A program made the position numbers and the translations under genes. Source: Nonomuraea sp. NBC_00507 (GTDB lineage: Bacteria; Actinomycetota; Actinomycetes; Streptosporangiales; Streptosporangiaceae). Taken from it: DNA of 64,000 nucleotides. Location: NCBI RefSeq assembly GCF_036013525.1, contig NZ_CP107853.1, forward strand, positions 6,386,001-6,450,000, in the 5' to 3' direction. The notes under the pieces are model-generated. The model was not told the DNA's origin and did not search any database. It was given only the letters and a program-made list of their open reading frames with translations. Shown in pieces: positions 2,278-13,857 of the stretch. Numbering within the stretch: the stretch's first letter is position 1; every line of letters begins with the position of its first letter.

Positions 2278-3195
2278 ATGGGTGACGAGGGCAGGCGGTT
2301 CGCAGGAGTCGACACCAGCACACCCAACCTCGCCCGCATGCACGACTACTTCGTCGGTGGGAAGGACAACTTCGCCGCCGACCGGGAGGCGGCCGAGGCG
2401 GTGCTGGCCATCGCCCCGGAGGTCCGGGTGATGGCGCTGGAGCATCAGACGTTCCACGTACGGGTGATCCGCTTTCTCGCCGAGCAGGGCATCACCCAGT
2501 TCGTCAACCTCGGCTCAGGGCTGCCCACCGAGCACAACACGCACCAGCTGGCCCGCTCGCTCGCCCCTGACGCCCGCGTCGTCTACGTCGCCAACGATCC
2601 GGTGGTGCTGACCCATGGCCGGGCGATCCTCGCCAGGGAGCCCGGGATCGTCGTCGTCGAGGGCGACGTCATGCATCCTGCCGATCTGCTCGCCGACCCC
2701 CTTCTCCAGCAGACGATCGACCTCGATCAGCCGGTGGCGGTGTTGCTGTTCGCCGTCCTGCAGTACATCCCGGACGGCAGCGATCCCTTCCGGCGCGTGG
2801 CCGAATTGCGTGACGCGCTGCCGGCCGGCAGCCACGTCGTCATCACGCACGTCGTCTTCGACGCGCGCCCGGAGATCGCGGAGCCGCTCGTCGATCTCTA
2901 CAAGAAGATGCTGGGCGATGCGGACGGCGGGGCCCGCACCAAGGAGCAGGTGGCGCCCTTCTTCGACGGCTTCCAGCTGGTCGAGCCCGGGTTGGTCTAC
3001 GTCCGGGACTGGCGGCCCGATACCCCGTTCCTGCCGGAGAGGTCGGAGAAGGCCTGGGGGTGGTCGTGGGAGTCGGCCGGAAGCCCTAGGCGGCCCTTCG
3101 GCGGTTTCCTCGGTGGGCTAGGCCCGCGAAGCCGTGCCACGGAGTGGCACGGACGCGTGCTCTCCTCCTCCGCCGGCCCTTCCATTCTCTTGTAA
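2278..3195 (+). CDS. SAM-dependent methyltransferase, DUF574 family, with shifted C-terminus
   Basis: The protein has the DUF574 (Methyltransf_19) hallmarks: HDYFVGGKDNFAAD, the SAM loop NLGSGLPTEHNTH, VVYVANDP and APFFDGFQLVEPGL. ATG 2278 is preceded by GAGGGG at a good distance; ATG 2248 is an alternative. The last 40 or so residues are foreign to the family. In the -1 frame the sequence reads GVGRKP followed by TAG at 3087-3089, matching the CGVARKP end of the paralogue at 20621-21442. One missing G in the GGG at 3068-3070 explains this. The native gene probably ended at 3089. The methyl acceptor of this family is unknown. Confidence 0.8.
   Translation: MGDEGRRFAGVDTSTPNLARMHDYFVGGKDNFAADREAAEAVLAIAPEVRVMALEHQTFHVRVIRFLAEQGITQFVNLGSGLPTEHNTHQLARSLAPDARVVYVANDPVVLTHGRAILAREPGIVVVEGDVMHPADLLADPLLQQTIDLDQPVAVLLFAVLQYIPDGSDPFRRVAELRDALPAGSHVVITHVVFDARPEIAEPLVDLYKKMLGDADGGARTKEQVAPFFDGFQLVEPGLVYVRDWRPDTPFLPERSEKAWGWSWESAGSPRRPFGGFLGGLGPRSRATEWHGRVLSSSAGPSILL
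3132..3152 (+). terminator. Terminator-like hairpin inside the apparent 3' extension
   Basis: CCGTGCCAC (3132-3140) and GTGGCACGG (3144-3152) form a perfect 9-bp stem with a 3-base loop. The hairpin lies 43 bases after the predicted original TAG (3087-3089) but inside the frame that now reads through to 3195, supporting the frameshift interpretation. Confidence 0.55.
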
Positions 3196-3257
3196 CCCCC
3201 AGTCCACCCCGTGGTCTGTGGATCGACAGGTCCGGGTCCAGCCGAGGGAGTCCCTCC

Positions 3258-4574
3258 ATGTCCGATATCGCCGCCCCCTCTCCGCCCACGCCGGCTCCCG
3301 CGAGTGACAAGCGCACGGTGTCGCGGGTCGTCGCCGCGAGCCTGATCGGCACCGTGGTCGAGTACTACGACTTCGCGGTGTACGGCACCGCCGCCGCCCT
3401 GGTCCTGGGCCCGGCGTTCTTCCCGTCGGGCAGCCCCACGGTCCAGACCCTCGCCGCCTTCCTCACCTTCGCCGGGGCGTTCCTGGCGCGGCCTTTCGGG
3501 GTGGTGCTGTTCGGGACCATCGGCGATCGGCTGGGGCGCAAGCGGGCGCTGGTCCTGTCACTGCTGCTGATGGGAACGGCCACGGTGGGGGTCGGACTGC
3601 TCCCGACGTACGAGAGCGCCGGAATGCTCGCCCCCGTCCTGCTGGTGGCCCTGCGCCTGCTCCAGGGCGTGAGCATGGGCGGCGAGTGGGGCGGCGCCGT
3701 CCTGCTGGCCGCCGAGCACGCGCCGCCGGCCCGCCGGGCGATGTTCGCCTCCATCCCGCAGGCCGGGCCGCCCCTGGGCTTCCTGCTGTCCAGCGCGGTG
3801 ATCCTGCCCACGCTGGCCATCGCCGGGCGTGACGGCTTCGCCGCCGGGGCGTGGCGGATTCCGTTCCTGTTCAGCGCGGCGCTCATCATCATCGGCCTGT
3901 GGGTGCGCAGCCAGGTGACCGAGTCCCCGGTGTTCACCTCCGCACCCCGTCGTACGGCCTCCCGCTTCCCGCTCGGCACGCTGGTCAAGGAACACCCCCG
4001 CCGGCTGCTGCTGGGCATCGGCGCGGCGATCGGCGGCTCGTCGGTCTACTACCTCACCACCGTCTACAGCCTGCAGTACGGGCCGAAGGCGCTCGGCCTC
4101 TCGCAGGGCGCGGTGCTCACCGCCGCGAGCATCGCCGCCACGGCCGGAGCCCTGGCGACCGTTCCGGTGGCGCGACTGGCCGACAAGGTCGGCAGGCGTC
4201 CCGTGATGCTGGCGGGCCTCGTCGGCTGCGTGCTCTGGGCGCTGCCCATGTTCGGCTCGCTGCAGACCGGCAACGGCCTGGTGATCACGGGAGCGTTCAC
4301 GCTGGGGCTGGTGCTGTTCACGCTGAGCTTCGCGCCGATCGCCGCCTTCCTGCCCGAGCTCTTCCCCGCGCGGCTGCGGTACACCGGCGCGTCGGCGGCC
4401 TTCATCCTCGCCAACACGCTCGGCGGCGGCTTCGCCCCGGTCGTCGCCACCTGGCTGAACACCCACTGGGCGTCACCCCTGGTGCTCGGCGCCTATGCGG
4501 GGGCGCTGTGCCTGCTCAGCCTCCTCTGCGTGCTCGCGCTGCCGGAGACCCGCGACCACGCATTCGCCGCCTGA
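3258..4574 (+). CDS. MFS transporter of the metabolite:H+ symporter (MHS) family
   Basis: The 438-residue protein shows about twelve membrane helices and MHS signatures: GTVVEYYDFAVYG at the first helix, RPFGVVLFGTIGDRLGRKRAL in the loop 2-3 region, LRLLQGVSMGGEWGGAVLLAAEHA, and LADKVGRRPVM. The start ATG 3258 is chosen because GAGGGAG lies 7 bases upstream and the family begins just before the first helix. Relatives import organic acids such as shikimate, alpha-ketoglutarate or aromatic acids together with protons. The IclR gene directly downstream suggests that the cargo is an aromatic or carboxylic acid; this is inference. Confidence 0.88.
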   Translation: MSDIAAPSPPTPAPASDKRTVSRVVAASLIGTVVEYYDFAVYGTAAALVLGPAFFPSGSPTVQTLAAFLTFAGAFLARPFGVVLFGTIGDRLGRKRALVLSLLLMGTATVGVGLLPTYESAGMLAPVLLVALRLLQGVSMGGEWGGAVLLAAEHAPPARRAMFASIPQAGPPLGFLLSSAVILPTLAIAGRDGFAAGAWRIPFLFSAALIIIGLWVRSQVTESPVFTSAPRRTASRFPLGTLVKEHPRRLLLGIGAAIGGSSVYYLTTVYSLQYGPKALGLSQGAVLTAASIAATAGALATVPVARLADKVGRRPVMLAGLVGCVLWALPMFGSLQTGNGLVITGAFTLGLVLFTLSFAPIAAFLPELFPARLRYTGASAAFILANTLGGGFAPVVATWLNTHWASPLVLGAYAGALCLLSLLCVLALPETRDHAFAA

Positions 4575-4708: not shown

Positions 4709-5524
4709 ATGGCTACGTCCCACCGCGATCCAGGCGCCGACCTGGAATTCGCCGACCCGGACCAGCGGCAGCCCACGGCCGTCGACAAGGCGCTCGTCCT
4801 GCTGAAGTCGCTCGCCGACCACGACCGCGAGATCGGGGTCAGCGAGCTGGCGCGGCGCACCGGGCTGACCAAGTCCACAGCCTTCCGCCTGCTCGGCATC
4901 CTCCACCGCAACGACCTCGTCGAGCGCGTCGGCAGCGACTACCGGCTGGGCACGCGGTTGTTCGACATGGGCGCCCGGGTCTACGGCCCGACCTCGCTGG
5001 TGTTGCGGGAGCGCCTGCTGCCGTATCTCGCCGACCTGTACGAGCTGACCCACGAGACGGTGCACTTGGCCGTGCTCCATGACACCGGGATCGTGTACAT
5101 CAACAAGATCCACGGCCATCGGCCGGCGCGATGCCCCTCCCAGATCGGCGCCCGCCTGCCGGCCTACTGCACCGGGGTCGGCAAGGCGCTGCTCGCCTTC
5201 GATCACGACGCCGCCGAGGCGGCCATCGCGGAGGGACTGGCGCCGCGCACCGGCTCCACGCTCACCGACCCCGCCCATTTCCGCGCTGAGCTGCGGCGGA
5301 TCAGGGTGGACGGGGTCGCCTACGACCGGCAGGAAGCCGTCCCGGGTCTCGTCTGCGTCGCCGTGCCGATCATGAACGGGGCGGGCAGGCCGGTGGCCGC
5401 GTTGTCGGTGGCAGGTGCTCACCATCGGTTCGATCCCGCACGCTTCGCCCCGGCCCTGCGCCGGGTCGCGTACGAGGCGTCACGGGCGCTCGTCGCGGCC
5501 CAGCGGCAGGCGGCGAGCGGCTGA
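4709..5524 (+). CDS. IclR family transcriptional regulator
   Basis: The 271-residue protein has an N-terminal winged helix (about 24-90, with AVDKALVLLKSLADHDREI and LTKSTAFRLLGILHRNDLVER) and a C-terminal IclR effector domain (about 105-265, with LPAYCTGVGKALLAF). ATG 4709 has AGGAG 7-11 bases upstream. IclR proteins usually sense small carboxylic or aromatic acids and control catabolic and transporter genes. The MHS transporter immediately upstream is the probable target, together with its own gene through the palindrome at 4658-4671. The effector cannot be read from sequence. Confidence 0.9.
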   Translation: MATSHRDPGADLEFADPDQRQPTAVDKALVLLKSLADHDREIGVSELARRTGLTKSTAFRLLGILHRNDLVERVGSDYRLGTRLFDMGARVYGPTSLVLRERLLPYLADLYELTHETVHLAVLHDTGIVYINKIHGHRPARCPSQIGARLPAYCTGVGKALLAFDHDAAEAAIAEGLAPRTGSTLTDPAHFRAELRRIRVDGVAYDRQEAVPGLVCVAVPIMNGAGRPVAALSVAGAHHRFDPARFAPALRRVAYEASRALVAAQRQAASG

Positions 5525-7500: not shown

Positions 7501-8781
7501 GTGAAGCTCCGCATCGCAACACCGGTCGTGCTCGCCGCGGCCATCGCCCTGACCGCATCCGCCTGTGGAGGCGGCGGCAGCAGCACCTCGGCCCTGCCGT
7601 CAGGCGACGGCAAGTCGTTCGAGTTCTGGTCGTTCACCGGGATCGACCAGAAGACGTCGGTCGATAAGTACCAGAAGGACAACCCGGGTGTGCAGGTCAA
7701 GCTGACCGAGGTGGGGGGCTCCACGGAGACGGCACAGGCCCTGACCACGGCGCTGGCCGGCGGCAAGGTGCCGGACCTCGTCCTCATCCAGGGTGACGAC
7801 CTGCCCAAGTTCGTGCAGCAGCCGCAGAACTTCTACGACCTGCGGCAGCTCGGCGCGGACAAGATCAAGGGCGATTACCTGGACTGGGTGATGAGCCAGA
7901 GCACCGCCAAGGGCGGCGAGATCATCGGCATTCCGACGGACGTGGGCGGCATGGCGGTGGCGTACCGCCATGACCTGTTCAAGGAGGCCGGGCTGCCGAC
8001 GGACCGGGAGGAGGTGGGCAAGCTCTGGCCGACGTGGGACGCCTTCATCGAGACCGGCAAGAAGTACACCACGGCCACCGGGAAGGCGTTCGTCGACAAC
8101 GCCGCCACCAGCGTGTTCTACCAGGCGGTCAACCAGGGGCCGATGAAGTACTACGACCCCTCGGGCAACGTCGTCTACAGCACCAGCCCCCAGGTCAAGA
8201 CCGCCTTCGACCTGGCGATCAAGGCGGCGCAGTCCGGGATCACGGCCAAGCAGAGCTCGTTCTCCGACGGCTGGAGCGCGGGTATAGGCAAGGGCCAGTT
8301 CGCGGTGGTCTCTGCGCCGGCGTGGTTGCTGGGACAGATCGAGCGGAACGCCCCCGACACCAAGGGCAAGTGGGACATCGCCGCTATTCCTGGCGGAGCG
8401 GGCAACTGGGGCGGCAGCTACCTGGCCATCCCCAAGGGCGCCAAGAACCCGAAGGCCGCCTGGGACTACATCACCAAGACGCAGTCGCCGCAGAGCCAGC
8501 TGGAGCACTTCGTCGACTCGGGGTCGCTGCCCACCACCCCGTCGGTCTACAAGGACCCGAAGCTGACCGGGCACAAGGACTCGTTCTTCTCCGACGCGCC
8601 GACCGGGACGATCTACACCAACTCGCTGCTCGGGCTCAAGCCGTTCCACGTCGGCACGGACAGCGCCGCCATCGGTCAGGAGTTCCTGAACGCGCTCGAG
8701 AACGTGGAGCAGGGCAAGGGCGACGCCGCCAAGGCATGGGACGCGGCGCTGGCCAACATCAAGACCGCCATCGGTAAGTAG
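7501..8781 (+). CDS. Sugar ABC transporter substrate-binding lipoprotein
   Basis: The 426-residue protein starts with a lipoprotein signal ending LTASAC and continues as a family-1 extracellular solute-binding protein (FEFWSFTGIDQKTSVDKYQ, VPDLVLIQGDD, GIPTDVGGMAVAYR, AIPKGAKNPKAAWDYI). GTG 7501 has GAGGTAG 3-9 bases upstream. It delivers a mono- or oligosaccharide to the two permeases that follow at 8789 and 9742. The sugar is not identifiable. Regulation is presumably by the divergent LacI-type protein. Confidence 0.92.
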   Translation: MKLRIATPVVLAAAIALTASACGGGGSSTSALPSGDGKSFEFWSFTGIDQKTSVDKYQKDNPGVQVKLTEVGGSTETAQALTTALAGGKVPDLVLIQGDDLPKFVQQPQNFYDLRQLGADKIKGDYLDWVMSQSTAKGGEIIGIPTDVGGMAVAYRHDLFKEAGLPTDREEVGKLWPTWDAFIETGKKYTTATGKAFVDNAATSVFYQAVNQGPMKYYDPSGNVVYSTSPQVKTAFDLAIKAAQSGITAKQSSFSDGWSAGIGKGQFAVVSAPAWLLGQIERNAPDTKGKWDIAAIPGGAGNWGGSYLAIPKGAKNPKAAWDYITKTQSPQSQLEHFVDSGSLPTTPSVYKDPKLTGHKDSFFSDAPTGTIYTNSLLGLKPFHVGTDSAAIGQEFLNALENVEQGKGDAAKAWDAALANIKTAIGK

Positions 8782-8788
8782 GACCGGC

Positions 8789-9742
8789 GTGACGACGACT
8801 CTCAGCACGTCGCGGGCGGCCGGTACGCCGCCCGCGGTCCCCACCCGGGTCCGGCAGAGCATCCGCGAGCGCGTCGCCCCGTACGCCTACATCGCGCCGT
8901 TCTTCCTGATCTTCGCGGTGTTCGGCCTGGTGCCGCTGCTGTTCACGTTCTACGTGGCGCTGTTCGACTGGAACCCGATCGGCGAGCACGTCTTCATCGG
9001 CCTGGACAACTTCACCCGTCTGCTCGACGACGCCCGGTTCTGGAACGCCGCCTGGAACACCATCAGCATCTGGCTGTGGTCGACCGTGCCGCAGCTGCTG
9101 CTGGCGCTGGTTCTGGCGCACCTGCTCAACCACGCCCGGCTGCGGTTCGCGGTGTTCCTCCGGATGTCGATGCTGGTGCCGTACATCACCTCGGTCGCGG
9201 CCACCGCTATCGTCTTCGCCCAGATGTTCGACCGCGACTACGGCCTGCTCAACTGGTTGCTCGGGCTAGTGGGGGTGGAGCCGATCGACTTCAAGCAGTC
9301 GGTATGGGGCAGCCACCTGCTCATCGCGGCGATGGTCACCTGGCGCTGGTTCGGCTACACGACCCTGCTGTATCTGGCCTCGCTGCAGGCGATCCCGCGC
9401 GCGCTGTACGAGGCCGCGGCGGTCGACGGCGCGGGCAGCTGGAAGCAGTTCCGCCACATCTCCATCCCGTCCCTGCGGCCGGTCATCGTGTTCACGATCG
9501 TGACCTCCACGATCGGCGGGCTGCAGATCTTCACCGAGCCGCTGCTCATCTCCCGGGTCTCGGCGGTGACCTGCGGGCCGGTCCGCCAGTGCCAGACGCT
9601 CGCACTCTTCCTGTACGAGCAGGGATTCGGCCAGTTCCAGTTCGGCTACGGCGCCGCCATCGGCGTGGCGCTGTTCATCCTGATCATCGCCTTCGCCACG
9701 CTCAACTACCTCCTGTCCGCCCGCGTCCGCCCGGAGCGCTGA
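8789..9742 (+). CDS. Sugar ABC transporter permease (MalF-like)
   Basis: The 317-residue protein has six predicted membrane helices and the cytoplasmic EAA loop EAAAVDGAGSWKQFRHISIP that contacts the ATPase. GTG 8789 lies 7 bases after the binding-protein stop; GGACCGG is a weak RBS. It forms the channel with the product of 9742-10569. Confidence 0.92.
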   Translation: MTTTLSTSRAAGTPPAVPTRVRQSIRERVAPYAYIAPFFLIFAVFGLVPLLFTFYVALFDWNPIGEHVFIGLDNFTRLLDDARFWNAAWNTISIWLWSTVPQLLLALVLAHLLNHARLRFAVFLRMSMLVPYITSVAATAIVFAQMFDRDYGLLNWLLGLVGVEPIDFKQSVWGSHLLIAAMVTWRWFGYTTLLYLASLQAIPRALYEAAAVDGAGSWKQFRHISIPSLRPVIVFTIVTSTIGGLQIFTEPLLISRVSAVTCGPVRQCQTLALFLYEQGFGQFQFGYGAAIGVALFILIIAFATLNYLLSARVRPER

Positions 9743-10569
9743 TGAACAAGGCCAACCGCGTCCGCTGGTGGACCTATCTCCTCCTCGGCCTGGCCGTTTT
9801 CGCCTGCCTGTTCCCGCTGTACTGGATGTTCGTGGTCGCCAGCACCGACAGCGCGACCGCCACCCAGATGCCGCCCGAGATCGTGCCCGGCGGCAACTTC
9901 TTCCACCTGGCCGGGCTGGTCTTCGAGACGGTGCCGTTCGTCAGCTCGATGGTCAACAGCCTCATCGTGGCCGGGGCCATCGGGGTCGGGCACGCGGTGC
10001 TCTGCTCGCTGGCGGGCTTCGCCTTCGCCAAGATGAGCTTCCGCGGCCGCAACACGTTGTTCCTGATCGTGGTGCTGACCATGACCGTGCCGACGCAGCT
10101 CGCGGTCATCCCGCAGTACATGATCATATCCAACCTGAACTGGGTGGACACCCTGCAGGCGCTCATCGTGCCCGGCCTGGCCAGCGCGTTCGGCATCTTC
10201 TGGATGCGTCAGCACATCGGTGCCACGATCAGCGACGAGCTCCTCCAGGCCGCCCGCATCGACGGGGCCACGACCTGGCAGATCTTCTGGCGGATCGCGT
10301 TCCCGCTGGTACGGCCGGCCGCGTTCGTCCTCGGCCTGCTCGGCTTCGTCACCGCGTGGAACGACTTCCTGTGGCCGTTCATCGTGCTGAAGTCGCCCGA
10401 GATGTACACCGCGCAGATCGCCATCAAGGCGCTGCAGAACAGCTTCGACATCGACCTCGGGCTCGCCATGTCCGGCTCGTTCCTGGCGACCTTGCCGCTG
10501 CTGGTGCTGTTCATCTTCGTCGGCAGGCGGATGGTGGCCGGGATCATGGACGGCGCCTTCAAGGGCTGA
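9742..10569 (+). CDS. Sugar ABC transporter permease (MalG-like)
   Basis: The 275-residue partner permease has six helices and the EAA loop AARIDGATTWQIFWRIAFP. Its ATG overlaps the stop codon of the preceding permease by one base, indicating translational coupling. No ATPase gene follows; in actinomycetes such importers commonly share a single MsiK-type ATPase encoded elsewhere, which is the likely case here. No glycoside hydrolase is linked, so the sugar remains unknown. Confidence 0.92.
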   Translation: MNKANRVRWWTYLLLGLAVFACLFPLYWMFVVASTDSATATQMPPEIVPGGNFFHLAGLVFETVPFVSSMVNSLIVAGAIGVGHAVLCSLAGFAFAKMSFRGRNTLFLIVVLTMTVPTQLAVIPQYMIISNLNWVDTLQALIVPGLASAFGIFWMRQHIGATISDELLQAARIDGATTWQIFWRIAFPLVRPAAFVLGLLGFVTAWNDFLWPFIVLKSPEMYTAQIAIKALQNSFDIDLGLAMSGSFLATLPLLVLFIFVGRRMVAGIMDGAFKG

Positions 10570-10630: not shown

Positions 10631-12319
10631 TCAAGCGCTGGACACAGAGGGGCGCAAGTGCCCGTTGCGCACCAGCCAGATGGCCTTCTCCAAGTCGGGG
10701 GTGAGATAGCGGTCGTCGCCCAGGGGTGTGACGTACCTCCTGATCTCCGTGTGCAGGCCCTGGGTGACGGCGCCGAGCGGCAGGCCCGCCATCTTCTGGG
10801 CGATCAGGTCAACGCCCTGGGCCGCCATCAGATACTGGACCGCCAGGACGATTTCCAGCCGGTCCAGGTTCTCGTGCAGGTGCCGGACCGAGGCCATCGC
10901 CATCGTGTTGTGGTCCTCCTGCCCGTCCTTGACCGGCCGGGACAGCGTCCCCGCAGGCGCGGCCCTGACCTGCATCTCCGGGACCAGCGCCGCGGCCACC
11001 GTCTGCACCTGCACCATCCCGGAGTTCAGCCCGACCGTGCCACCGGCGAGGTTCGCCGGAAGGCCGTAGCTCCACCGGGGCGACAGCAGCCGTCCCGACA
11101 GTTCCTGCGACAGCACCCCGATGTCGGCGATCTCCGCGTTGAGGGTGTCGGCCAGATGCCCCATGATGGAGCCGTCCCAGTTGCCGCCCATCACGAACTC
11201 GTAGCCCGGCCCTTCATCCCGCTTGAAGATCAGCGGGTTGGAGGTCGAGGAGTTGGCCTCCCGCAGCAGAGTCCGGTGCGCGTCGGCGAGCTCGTGCCGC
11301 AGGCCGGCCATGATGTGCGGCGCCGCCCGCACCGACACCGCGTCCTGGATGCGCGGCTCGTAGTTCGCCGGGTCGAGGCGCTTGCGTCCCTCCTCCGTCA
11401 TCCAGCCCGAGCCCGCCACCATCTCCCGCAGCCGCGCGGCGACCGCGTCCTCCTCGGGGATGTGGCGTTCCTTGTGCGTACGCGCGTCGAGCGATCCCCG
11501 CTCGGCCCTGGTCGCCTCCATGAACAGGGCGAAGGCGCCTTCCGCCTGGTCGGCGAGCACGGTGGCCCGGTGCACGGCGTGCAGCAGGGTGGCGGCCAGG
11601 ACCGTGCTGCCGCTGACGATCGGCAGCGCTTCCCCGGCCTGGAGGGTGAAGTCCCTGGGCAGCCCGGCCTTCGGCAGCAGCTCGGAGGCCGGCCCCTCGA
11701 CCCCCTGGTACCGCACCGGCGCGTTCTCGCCGATCATCGCCAGCCCGGCCGCGGCCTGCGGCTGCAGGTCCCCGGTGCCCAGCGAGCCGATCTGCGGCAT
11801 CCGCGGCACGACGCCCGCGTTGACCATGTCCAGCAGCCGCTGGGGCACTTCGGGTCGTACCCCGACCTTTCCCCTGGCCATCTGGTTCGCCTTGAGGATC
11901 ATGACCAGCCGGACCACGTCGTCGGGCAGCGGCTCACCGACGCCCGCGGCGTGCGAGCGCAGGACGTTGCGCTGGAACTGCTCGGCCTGCTCGGGTGTGA
12001 GCGGACGGTCCTTCAGCGGCCCGAGCGCCTGGTTCCAGCCGTACACCCGCTGGTTCTCCAGGGCCTTCAGCGCTCCTGCCCGCGTGGTGATCATGTTCGC
12101 CCGCGCGTCCGGTGCGAGCTGGGCGGAGACCGGACGGCCATCGAGGATGGCGAGCGCGTCCTGGAGGGAGAGCGAACCGCCGTCCAGCACCAGGCCCAGC
12201 ACCGGCGCAGGCGCTGCTGCCACAGGAGGCGGGGCGGGTTCGGCGACTGCCTGCCCCGGCGCGCACAGGGCGGCCAGCAGGCCGACGGCGGTCGCCATTC
12301 GTCCGATGGTGGTCATCAA
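10631..12319 (-). CDS. Secreted aromatic amino acid lyase-family protein lacking the MIO tripeptide
   Basis: The 562-residue protein aligns through its length to the histidine/phenylalanine ammonia-lyase family: VYGWNQALG (Tyr loop), IQDAVSVRAAPHIMAG (keeps the Arg), SNPLIF, MGGNWDGSIMG and GQEDHNTMA (keeps Gln-Glu-Asp-His). Where active enzymes have G-S-V-G-A-S-G-D-L, this one reads GSLGTGDLQ (G181-T182-G183), one residue shorter and without Ser. The MIO cofactor therefore cannot form in the usual way. A signal peptide with an Ala-x-Ala site ending near residue 26 indicates export, also unusual for this cytosolic family. It may be a binding protein or catalyse another reaction. A TATAAC -10 candidate lies at 12366-12361. 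Confidence 0.8.
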   Translation of the reverse strand: MMTTIGRMATAVGLLAALCAPGQAVAEPAPPPVAAAPAPVLGLVLDGGSLSLQDALAILDGRPVSAQLAPDARANMITTRAGALKALENQRVYGWNQALGPLKDRPLTPEQAEQFQRNVLRSHAAGVGEPLPDDVVRLVMILKANQMARGKVGVRPEVPQRLLDMVNAGVVPRMPQIGSLGTGDLQPQAAAGLAMIGENAPVRYQGVEGPASELLPKAGLPRDFTLQAGEALPIVSGSTVLAATLLHAVHRATVLADQAEGAFALFMEATRAERGSLDARTHKERHIPEEDAVAARLREMVAGSGWMTEEGRKRLDPANYEPRIQDAVSVRAAPHIMAGLRHELADAHRTLLREANSSTSNPLIFKRDEGPGYEFVMGGNWDGSIMGHLADTLNAEIADIGVLSQELSGRLLSPRWSYGLPANLAGGTVGLNSGMVQVQTVAAALVPEMQVRAAPAGTLSRPVKDGQEDHNTMAMASVRHLHENLDRLEIVLAVQYLMAAQGVDLIAQKMAGLPLGAVTQGLHTEIRRYVTPLGDDRYLTPDLEKAIWLVRNGHLRPSVSSA

Positions 12320-12495: not shown

Positions 12496-13857
12496 TCATC
12501 CCGAGCGGGGAAGGCGCAGCACGAACCGGGCGCCGGTGTCGGAATCCTCGATGGTCAGGGTGCCCTGGTGGGCCGTCGCGATCTCGCGGGCGATCGGCAG
12601 GCCGAGCCCGGTGCCGCCGATGTCGCGGTTACGCGCGTCGTCCAGGCGGGTGAAGCGCTCGAAGACGAGGTCGCGCTGGGCGGGGGCGATGCCGGCGCCG
12701 TCGTCGAGCACCTCGAGCACGGCCTCCCCGCCCTCCTGCCGCACCGTCACGTCGATCCGCGTCTCGGCGTGCCGCTCGGCGTTGTCCAGCAGGTTCGTCA
12801 GCAGGCGGACCAGCTGCAGGCGGTCGCCCATGATGACCACGCTCTCCTGCGTGTGGGTGATGACGCGCTTGGTGCGCGGCCTGGTCGTCTCGGCGACGAC
12901 GAGCTCGCCCAGGTCCACGTGCTCTCGGCGGCTGGGGGCGTCGGCGTCCAGCTTGGTCAGCGTGAGCAGGTCCGAGACGATGGCCTGGAGCCGGTCCAGA
13001 CTGGCGAGCACCTCCGTGCCCGTCGCCTGCCAGTCGGTGTCCTCGGGGTGGAGCATCGCCTCCTCGACCTGGGTACGCATCGCGGTGATCGGGCTGCGCA
13101 GGTCGTGCGAGGCGTCGCCGGCGAACCTGCGCTGCCGCTCTATCGCGATCTCCTGCTGCCGCATCGCCGCCTCCAGCCGCTCCAGCGTCTCGTTGGCGGT
13201 CTCGGCCAGAGCCCTGAGCTCGTCGTCAGTGTCCGGCACGGGAACCCGCAGCCCGCCGCCGCCCGCGGTGATCTCGGCCAGCCTCGTCGTGATGCTGCCC
13301 ACCGGTGCGAGCGTCCGGTGCACGACCCGCGACACCCCCAACCAGGTCACCGCGGCCAGCCCGGCCGTCATGCCGATCAGGAACAGGATCACCTGCGGGC
13401 TGACGTACCAGGGCACGGTCGGCTCGAAGGCGTAGATGACCCAGGTGCCGTCCGGCTGGTACGCGCGCAAGGCGACCACGATCTTGCACGTGCCGGGGAA
13501 GGCCGGCAGATCGCAGAGCTCCGCGTCGTCGTTGGCCTGGTCCGGGCGGGGGATCGCGGTGGTCTGGCGGGGCGCGCCGGCCAGGCTCCGCGTCCAGGTG
13601 ACCGGATGCCCGGCCGGGTCGATCACTTGGATGCCGTCGAGCCCGTCCGGCTCCAGCAGCCGGGGCAACTGGTACTTCTTGACCAGCATGAGCACGCGCA
13701 GGGCTTTGCCGGACACCTTGAGCGACCGGATGTCCCGGGCCTCGTCCCGCGTGCCGTACAGCACGAACGCGCTGACGACGATGTTCAGCAGGACCATGGC
13801 GATGCTGGCGAGCAGTGCCAGCCGCGTCCGCAGTGAACGGCGCAACCGTGCTCTCAC
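12496..13857 (-). CDS. Sensor histidine kinase (orphan in this window)
   Basis: The 453-residue protein has two membrane helices (about 12-34 and 152-172) around an extracytoplasmic sensor region with a Cys pair (ELCDLPAFPGTC), a HAMP domain, a HisKA domain with the phospho-acceptor in ASHDLRSPI (His about 250) and a HATPase domain with NLLDNAERHA, DDGAGIAP, FERFTRL and GGTGLGLPI. GTG 13857 follows a GGGGGGAAG RBS. No response regulator is adjacent; flanking genes are the secreted lyase-like protein downstream and the divergent TauE-type exporter. The partner must be elsewhere. Signal unknown. Confidence 0.9.
   Translation of the reverse strand: MRARLRRSLRTRLALLASIAMVLLNIVVSAFVLYGTRDEARDIRSLKVSGKALRVLMLVKKYQLPRLLEPDGLDGIQVIDPAGHPVTWTRSLAGAPRQTTAIPRPDQANDDAELCDLPAFPGTCKIVVALRAYQPDGTWVIYAFEPTVPWYVSPQVILFLIGMTAGLAAVTWLGVSRVVHRTLAPVGSITTRLAEITAGGGGLRVPVPDTDDELRALAETANETLERLEAAMRQQEIAIERQRRFAGDASHDLRSPITAMRTQVEEAMLHPEDTDWQATGTEVLASLDRLQAIVSDLLTLTKLDADAPSRREHVDLGELVVAETTRPRTKRVITHTQESVVIMGDRLQLVRLLTNLLDNAERHAETRIDVTVRQEGGEAVLEVLDDGAGIAPAQRDLVFERFTRLDDARNRDIGGTGLGLPIAREIATAHQGTLTIEDSDTGARFVLRLPRSG

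Follow-up and report, generated by a model that had tools for sequence, protein, structure and literature searches.

The window analysed here, 64,000 nucleotides of Nonomuraea sp. NBC_00507 (NZ_CP107853.1, positions 6,386,001 to 6,450,000), carries on its minus strand an intact open reading frame (ORF) of 562 amino acids (10631..12319) for a predicted exported protein with the fold of histidine ammonia-lyase (HAL) and, in all likelihood, without the 4-methylideneimidazole-5-one (MIO) cofactor. Sequence comparisons suggest, with moderate confidence, a secreted, MIO-independent and beta-eliminating HAL-fold lyase whose most likely reaction, like that of ergothionase, is the release of trimethylamine from an N,N,N-trimethylated histidine (betaine). 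The substrate may be hercynine, ergothioneine or another betaine. MIO-independence of the clade formed by its actinobacterial relatives is well supported and held with high confidence. Trimethylamine-lyase activity is likely for those members that are encoded next to genes of ergothioneine catabolism (ert).

The Pfam model Lyase_aromatic (PF00221) matches residues 50-527 of the window protein (E 2.7e-118), and fold comparisons assign it to the HAL fold. The frame opens with TTG at 12319; by inspection, the ATG one codon on (12316) is the likelier start. The cofactor-site loop GSLG-TGDLQ (11762..11788, minus strand; Thr182 at 11774-11776) is one residue shorter than GSVGASGDL of HAL. Its codons, GGC TCG CTG GGC ACC GGG GAC CTG CAG (11788-11762), give GSLGTGDLQ, and the HMMER alignment with Pseudomonas putida HAL has a gap of one residue at the MIO site. 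The MIO tripeptide Ala-Ser-Gly (or Cys-Ser-Gly) is not present. An earlier note on this DNA had described an ammonia-lyase homologue without Ala-Ser-Gly, its loop one residue short and with Thr; codons, HMMER gap and Pfam match bear this out. The hutH equivalog model of NCBIfam scores 330 bits, below its cut-off of 539. In the NCBIfam scan no model names the window lyase; the best scores belong to histidine ammonia-lyase models, each under its cut-off.

The same loop, an intact frame and 99% identity are found in a second genome of the species (G287), and comparison of the window gene with seven relatives gave ratios of nonsynonymous to synonymous substitution (dN/dS) of 0.20-0.33, i.e. purifying selection. 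In practice, a sequencing error or an isolated mutation is excluded by the clade-wide motif, the dN/dS values and the intact frame within the species. An isolated change or a lost codon, which the note had named as possible refuters, is thus not the case: the deletion is common to 63/63 clade rows and G287.

The list of relatives rests on exact matches to short peptide words from the window protein, which biases it to near relatives. It comprises 57 loci across many actinobacterial genera and two metagenome-assembled genomes (MAGs) labelled Rothia. The genera are Nonomuraea, Herbidospora, Thermocatellispora, Streptomyces, Streptacidiphilus, Embleya, Saccharothrix, Kibdelosporangium, Amycolatopsis, Allokutzneria, Sciscionella, Tamaricihabitans, Pseudonocardia, Nocardia, Actinomadura and Catenuloplanes. 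The loop is covered by 63 of 64 aligned actinobacterial relatives, cut or interrupted copies having been entered as single-frame pieces, and residue 142 (HAL numbering, used below for all numbered positions unless stated) is deleted in every one of the 63. The following residue is Thr in 50 rows, Ser in seven, Ile in five and Ala in one. As this residue varies, MIO cannot be a property of the clade. The distribution is patchy. A member (58-100% identity) occurs in 18/297 genomes of the family sample (manual row count), in 1/394 genomes of the class sample, which is the window genome itself, and in 4/246 genomes of the genus of S. naganishii (Streptomyces), three of them already in the list of relatives. 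In the open-licence literature, no paper on this clade was among the matches listed. Interrupted or cut lyase copies (L016, L085, L087, L088, L115) hint at dispensability or at draft-assembly errors. Asn replaces His at position 83 in L053, L054 and L062.

Active-site residues were compared among 58 full-length clade rows, 15 enzymes with Ala-Ser-Gly (ASG) and six ergothionase-like rows. L002, L016, L065, L078, L085, L087, L088 and identical duplicates were left out of the residue table and the trees; L102, recognised as an ASG enzyme, was excluded from subsequent trees and tables. Arg331 of the window protein (HAL Arg283; 11327..11329, minus strand, as for all following residues), presumably binding the carboxylate, and Glu468 (HAL Glu414; 10916..10918) are retained in every group. 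Asn195 and Tyr280, which are catalytic in HAL, are present in 15/15 ASG rows and replaced in the window protein by Ser236 (11612..11614) and Val328 (11336..11338), respectively, two losses that the earlier note does not mention. Ser195 occurs in 58/58 clade and 6/6 ergothionase-like rows, and position 280 is Val in 46 and Thr in 12 clade rows and Leu in 6/6 ergothionase-like rows. Lys103 (HAL 63; 12011..12013) is Lys in 58/58 clade and 6/6 ergothionase-like rows, in a shorter paralogue of the window genome (L003) and in 1/15 ASG rows (L022). Trp381-Asp382 (11174..11179) correspond to HAL Phe329-His330, the ergothionase-like rows having Phe-Glu.

Tyr53, Lys63, Ser195, Arg283 and Glu414 are invariant in the 58 clade rows, and His83 is found in 55. 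Trp55 is present in 58/58, Trp329 in 54/58, Phe or Tyr222 in 53/58 and Lys410 in 57/58, the latter in 0/6 ergothionase-like rows. Residue 330 is Asp in 54/58, Ala in L068, L070 and L071, and Asn in L080. Clade and all six ergothionase-like rows have in common the deletion of residue 142, Lys63, Asn105, Ser195, a residue other than Tyr at 280, an acid at 330 (clade 54/58) and Phe/Tyr222 (clade 53/58); Asn105 is also present in P. putida HAL. The window protein has the ergothionase-type Lys63, Ser195, non-Tyr280 and acid at 330, with roles that we infer.

Eleven clade loci, each with one lyase ORF, lie in operons with catabolic genes. In the fetched part of their flanks, urocanase-family enzymes occur in ten, thiohydantoin desulfurase in eight, ErtE in six and ErtD in four, besides a metabolite:H+ symporter in eight and an IclR regulator in seven. 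Genome-wide searches for desulfurase and EgtD covered 50 of the 57 loci, omitting the Nonomuraea loci L034, L037, L041, L043, L044, L047 and L049. The desulfurase (NF058529, 348-369 bits) was detected in 10/50 clade genomes, at 0.1-8.4 kb from the lyase (eight within the fetched loci; L074 and L086 from contig coordinates). Its base rate is 1/394 class genomes at the stricter E<=1e-60. The urocanase-family neighbours of L069 and L064 score higher with thiourocanate hydratase than with hutU (700 vs 584 bits, cut-off 930, and 699 vs 562 bits, respectively). In L079, ErtE reaches 520.5 bits, at the cut-off of 520. EgtD was found in 46/50 clade genomes. Two Rothia-labelled MAGs (L082 and L089, 2.1-2.2 Mb) encode a lyase without detected signal adjoining a desulfurase and gave no EgtD match; they may be ergothioneine consumers that are non-producers.

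The eleventh locus, L080 from Tamaricihabitans, contains a urocanase, an agmatinase/HutG-family protein, a symporter, the lyase and, by inspection, an IclR-like gene, and its genome has no desulfurase. Its urocanase scores 675 with hutU, 638 with S-methyl-thiourocanate hydratase and 605 with thiourocanate hydratase. The gene set suggests that this locus fits hercynine better than ergothioneine. L080 is divergent (Ile143, Asn330, Met410). Outside the clade, an ergothionase-like gene of Paracoccus saliphilus plasmid p242883 (L100, 5512-7200), whose product has a signal-like N-terminus, directly follows hutI-hutH-hutG-hutU. Annotated as 'aromatic amino acid ammonia-lyase', it is a candidate periplasmic hercynine lyase.

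The window protein is very probably exported, judged from its N-terminus. A Sec signal peptide is predicted for residues 2-26 (12242..12316, minus strand), with cleavage after AVA (MTTIGRMATAVGLLAALCAPGQAVA|EP; cleavage point by inspection). The purpose-built heuristic demands a start, a hydrophobic core and A-x-A. The trimmed window protein contains no Cys. The signal peptide of the earlier note is borne out by the heuristic together with the cysteine depletion of the mature part. Its statement that known members are cytosolic is not valid for MIO-less relatives: the ergothionase-like proteins of Burkholderia, Sinorhizobium, Paracoccus and Paraburkholderia have, by inspection, signal-like N-termini. 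A clade combining signal peptide and altered loop, the check it had proposed, exists in full for the deletion (63/63); the signal is positive in only 48 of 55 loci whose N-terminus could be judged (of the 57 fetched, L065 and L088 lack one). The negative loci are L052, L074, L079, L081, L082, L086 and L089. Among the ASG loci 1/13 was positive (L024), judged spurious. Cys counts of the 51 clade members outside the no-signal list are 0 in 33, 1 in five and 2 in 13; six of the seven no-signal members have 3-7 and L052 has none. For comparison, 15 ASG enzymes contain 2-8, the Treponema denticola ergothionase 8, L003 8 and five ergothionase-like plasmid proteins 0-1.

As a general rule, export as a shield of the producer's own ergothioneine does not hold cleanly: EgtD is present, with no detected signal, in Pseudonocardia L074, L081 and L086 and in Nocardia albiluteola L079. 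The same four members have a loosely conserved N-terminal stretch resembling GLxSLT..GPxLLPxP, altered in L086, and PEKLR occurs at the N-terminus of three no-signal Pseudonocardia members. In the Ile-loop Streptomyces proteins L053, L054 and L087, which may be lipoproteins, the hydrophobic stretch ends in a Cys.

MIO enzymes use their cofactor to activate a group that leaves poorly. Trimethylamine leaves well by itself, so that no MIO electrophile would be needed. For the elimination, the enzyme would have to bind the carboxylate, provide a base and stabilise charge. Arg283 would serve for the carboxylate and Tyr53 as the base, and Lys63 with other residues would stand in for the machinery of MIO, Asn195 and Tyr280. 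The easy departure of trimethylammonium would also explain the joint loss of the MIO tripeptide, Asn195 and Tyr280 with retention of Tyr53, Arg283 and Glu414. Trp55, Trp329 and Phe222 are proposed as an aromatic cage. A role is likewise proposed for Asp330, which cannot be indispensable throughout the clade. In ert-linked relatives, thiourocanate would be formed and passed on to thiourocanate hydratase, desulfurase, ErtD and ErtE. The window genome (12.9 Mb) has EgtD (377 bits) and can therefore probably make hercynine. As Nonomuraea has urocanase and EgtD and no thiohydantoin desulfurase, the enzyme's substrate would be external hercynine, supplying urocanate to the cell, or external ergothioneine, cleaved without further use of the product. 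A substrate outside the cell is plausible, since ergothioneine of Mycobacterium smegmatis is cited as higher outside than inside the cells (PMC12313630). Of the different chemistry, sensing role or scaffold that the earlier note had left open, the different chemistry gains support from purifying selection, the kept Tyr53, Arg283 and Glu414 and the ergothionase-like MIO-less features.

Several observations weigh against a trimethylamine lyase of the ergothionase type. The window lyase is located outside any ert or hut operon. An ert pathway elsewhere in the window genome was considered and rejected: the best desulfurase match has 82 bits (cut-off 440) and the one urocanase match 660 bits (cut-off 930), while no search aimed at ErtD or ErtE was made there. 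Scores of desulfurase, hydratase and ErtD in the relatives are all under the NCBIfam cut-offs, e.g. 348 bits for the L079 desulfurase (cut-off 440) and 387 bits for the L086 ErtD (cut-off 600). Both fold comparisons rank HAL above ergothionase for the window protein. The overall identity of the clade is 31.7% to ASG enzymes vs 24.9% to ergothionase-like proteins, and 26 consensus columns are common to the clade and ASG enzymes alone, 12 to the clade and ergothionase alone. Ala330 in the ert-linked L070 and Asn330 in L080 argue against an essential Asp330. Residue 280, Thr in 10/10 ert-linked members and Val in L080, was rejected as a substrate marker, because Thr also occurs in L068 and L071 without desulfurase. 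The ASG enzyme L022 has Lys63, Lys410 and Asn105 as well; the three thus also occur beyond the MIO-less enzymes and may be older than the loss of MIO, which weakens Lys63 as a mark exclusive to that loss. L003 combines the deletion, Lys63 and Ser195 with retained Tyr280 and His330. In the best trees the clade (100% support in the Shimodaira-Hasegawa-like approximate likelihood ratio test, SH-aLRT; long stem) stands apart from the ergothionase-like proteins, and L022 adjoins it (80-85% support). The approximately unbiased (AU) test of a single MIO-less branch, p 0.247 and 0.415 with L003 included, neither rejects nor shows it. Both trees are quick searches with long-branch warnings, and the AU-test tree took 23 of the 58 clade rows.

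The alternative that survives best, held as a tentative possibility, is an exported MIO-independent HAL-fold lyase or isomerase with a different substrate. This might be a further quaternary amino acid, or a compound that is no betaine yet has a good leaving group, and the ert-linked members would then form a specialised branch. Thiohydantoin desulfurase is missing from 40/50 clade genomes, a finding that also counts against the ergothionase-type reading, and outside the eleven operon loci no neighbour is conserved across genera within ~6 kb. Positions 226, 280, 407 and 411 differ among subclades, but 53, 63, 195, 283 and 414 are identical between operon and stand-alone members. Besides, L080, though divergent, suggests a non-thio route that needs urocanate metabolism only.

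It is improbable that the protein has lost catalysis and serves outside the cell as a ligand-binding protein or scaffold, perhaps in a sensing role with the adjacent histidine kinase. MIO, Asn195 and Tyr280 are all lost, and a HAMP/HisKA/HATPase kinase (Pfam; 12496..13857, minus strand) is encoded on the same strand directly upstream of the lyase in the window and in four relatives. These make up only 5/21 Nonomuraea loci (L075 has 1.5 kb of upstream sequence only), and the kinase cluster includes no genus other than Nonomuraea. The kinase was not judged part of the system, and the extracellular sensor pair proposed in the earlier note is not borne out. Moreover, relatives of the lyase sit among catabolic genes, and its five invariant residues argue against loss of catalysis.

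An ordinary ammonia-lyase with a modified MIO self-cyclised from Gly-Thr-Gly is very improbable. A Thr-Gly or Ser-Gly pair is retained in 57/63 rows, but the Ile (five) and Ala (one) members cannot dehydrate that side chain, and the Asn195 and Tyr280 of MIO enzymes are absent. MIO is also reported to be absent from ergothionase (PMC13405746), which has Glu at that site. The reading as a decaying, isolated paralogue or as a sequencing artefact, to which the interrupted or cut copies might point, is already refuted for the window gene by the clade-wide motif, the dN/dS values and the intact frame in the same species.

Among the other genes of the window is one for a metabolite:H+ symporter (3144-4574) homologous to the ert-linked symporter, ~6 kb beyond the lyase. 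After it comes an IclR-like regulator (by inspection, at about 4745-5524). An ABC-transporter operon separates the lyase from both. Symporter and regulator were not counted as evidence, as such genes are common. The ABC transporter genes (7501-10569; solute-binding protein and permease-like ORFs) are convergent with the lyase, and the same layout occurs in L034 and L035.

The results point to a group of MIO-less lyases with the HAL fold in actinobacteria, mostly exported, and suggest an extracellular breakdown route for ergothioneine or hercynine. It is rather doubtful, though conceivable, that the stand-alone secreted members (in Nonomuraea, Saccharothrix, some Streptomyces and other genera) degrade ambient ergothioneine or hercynine and emit trimethylamine. 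If so, they would strip their surroundings of an antioxidant possibly released by neighbours as well as by themselves, and their own intracellular ergothioneine would stay safe because the enzyme is exported. Trimethylamine is described as a volatile driving Streptomyces exploration, and its genes have reportedly not yet been found. The clade lyase genes can be tested as candidates for trimethylamine release in certain actinomycetes. As a general source in Streptomyces they are unlikely, being rare there. Such lyases are easily misnamed because their best NCBIfam scores are those of histidine ammonia-lyases. Loop length, Ser195 and residue 280 are sequence marks that separate MIO-less lyases from true ammonia-lyases.

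Three PF00221 matches occur in the window genome: the Cys-Ser-Gly type L001, the window gene and L003 (G000:C1:4345033-4346325). The clade differs from HutH (P. putida 1b8f/1gkm; L001) in the missing Ala-Ser-Gly, Ser195, Val/Thr280, Trp-Asp at 329-330 and the signal peptide. L003 resembles the clade in GAIG-TGDL, Lys63, Asn105 and Ser195, but no signal peptide was detected, it contains 8 Cys, and Tyr280, Phe329 and His330 are kept; inspection of its neighbourhood gave no clue to function. L022, a PF00221 protein encoded in a different genome of the genus, has a full-length loop with Ala-Ser-Gly and no signal was found; it is the nearest ASG row in the trees and has Lys63, Lys410 and Asn105 in common with the clade. 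It is a possible intermediate between ASG enzymes and the MIO-less clade.

Ergothionase is described as having a structure like HAL and the phenylalanine and tyrosine ammonia-lyases (PAL, TAL), but no MIO (PMC13405746). The T. denticola enzyme (6s7j) has the loop SSIGEGDIT, equal in length to the window loop, with Glu at the Thr site. The proteobacterial proteins are probably ergothionases, given their similarity to 6s7j (L093, E 2.5e-79). The clade and ergothionase (6s7j/6s7q) are alike in the HAL fold, the one-residue deletion, Lys63, Asn105, Ser195, non-Tyr280, Arg283, Glu414 and usually an acid at 330. They differ in the loop residue, Glu/Gln in ergothionase-like rows and Thr/Ser/Ile/Ala in the clade, and in residue 330, Glu and Asp, respectively; the clade has in addition Trp55, Trp329 and Lys410. 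Homologues of all four NCBIfam ert families (NF058529, NF058530, NF058538, NF058540) are located near clade lyases.

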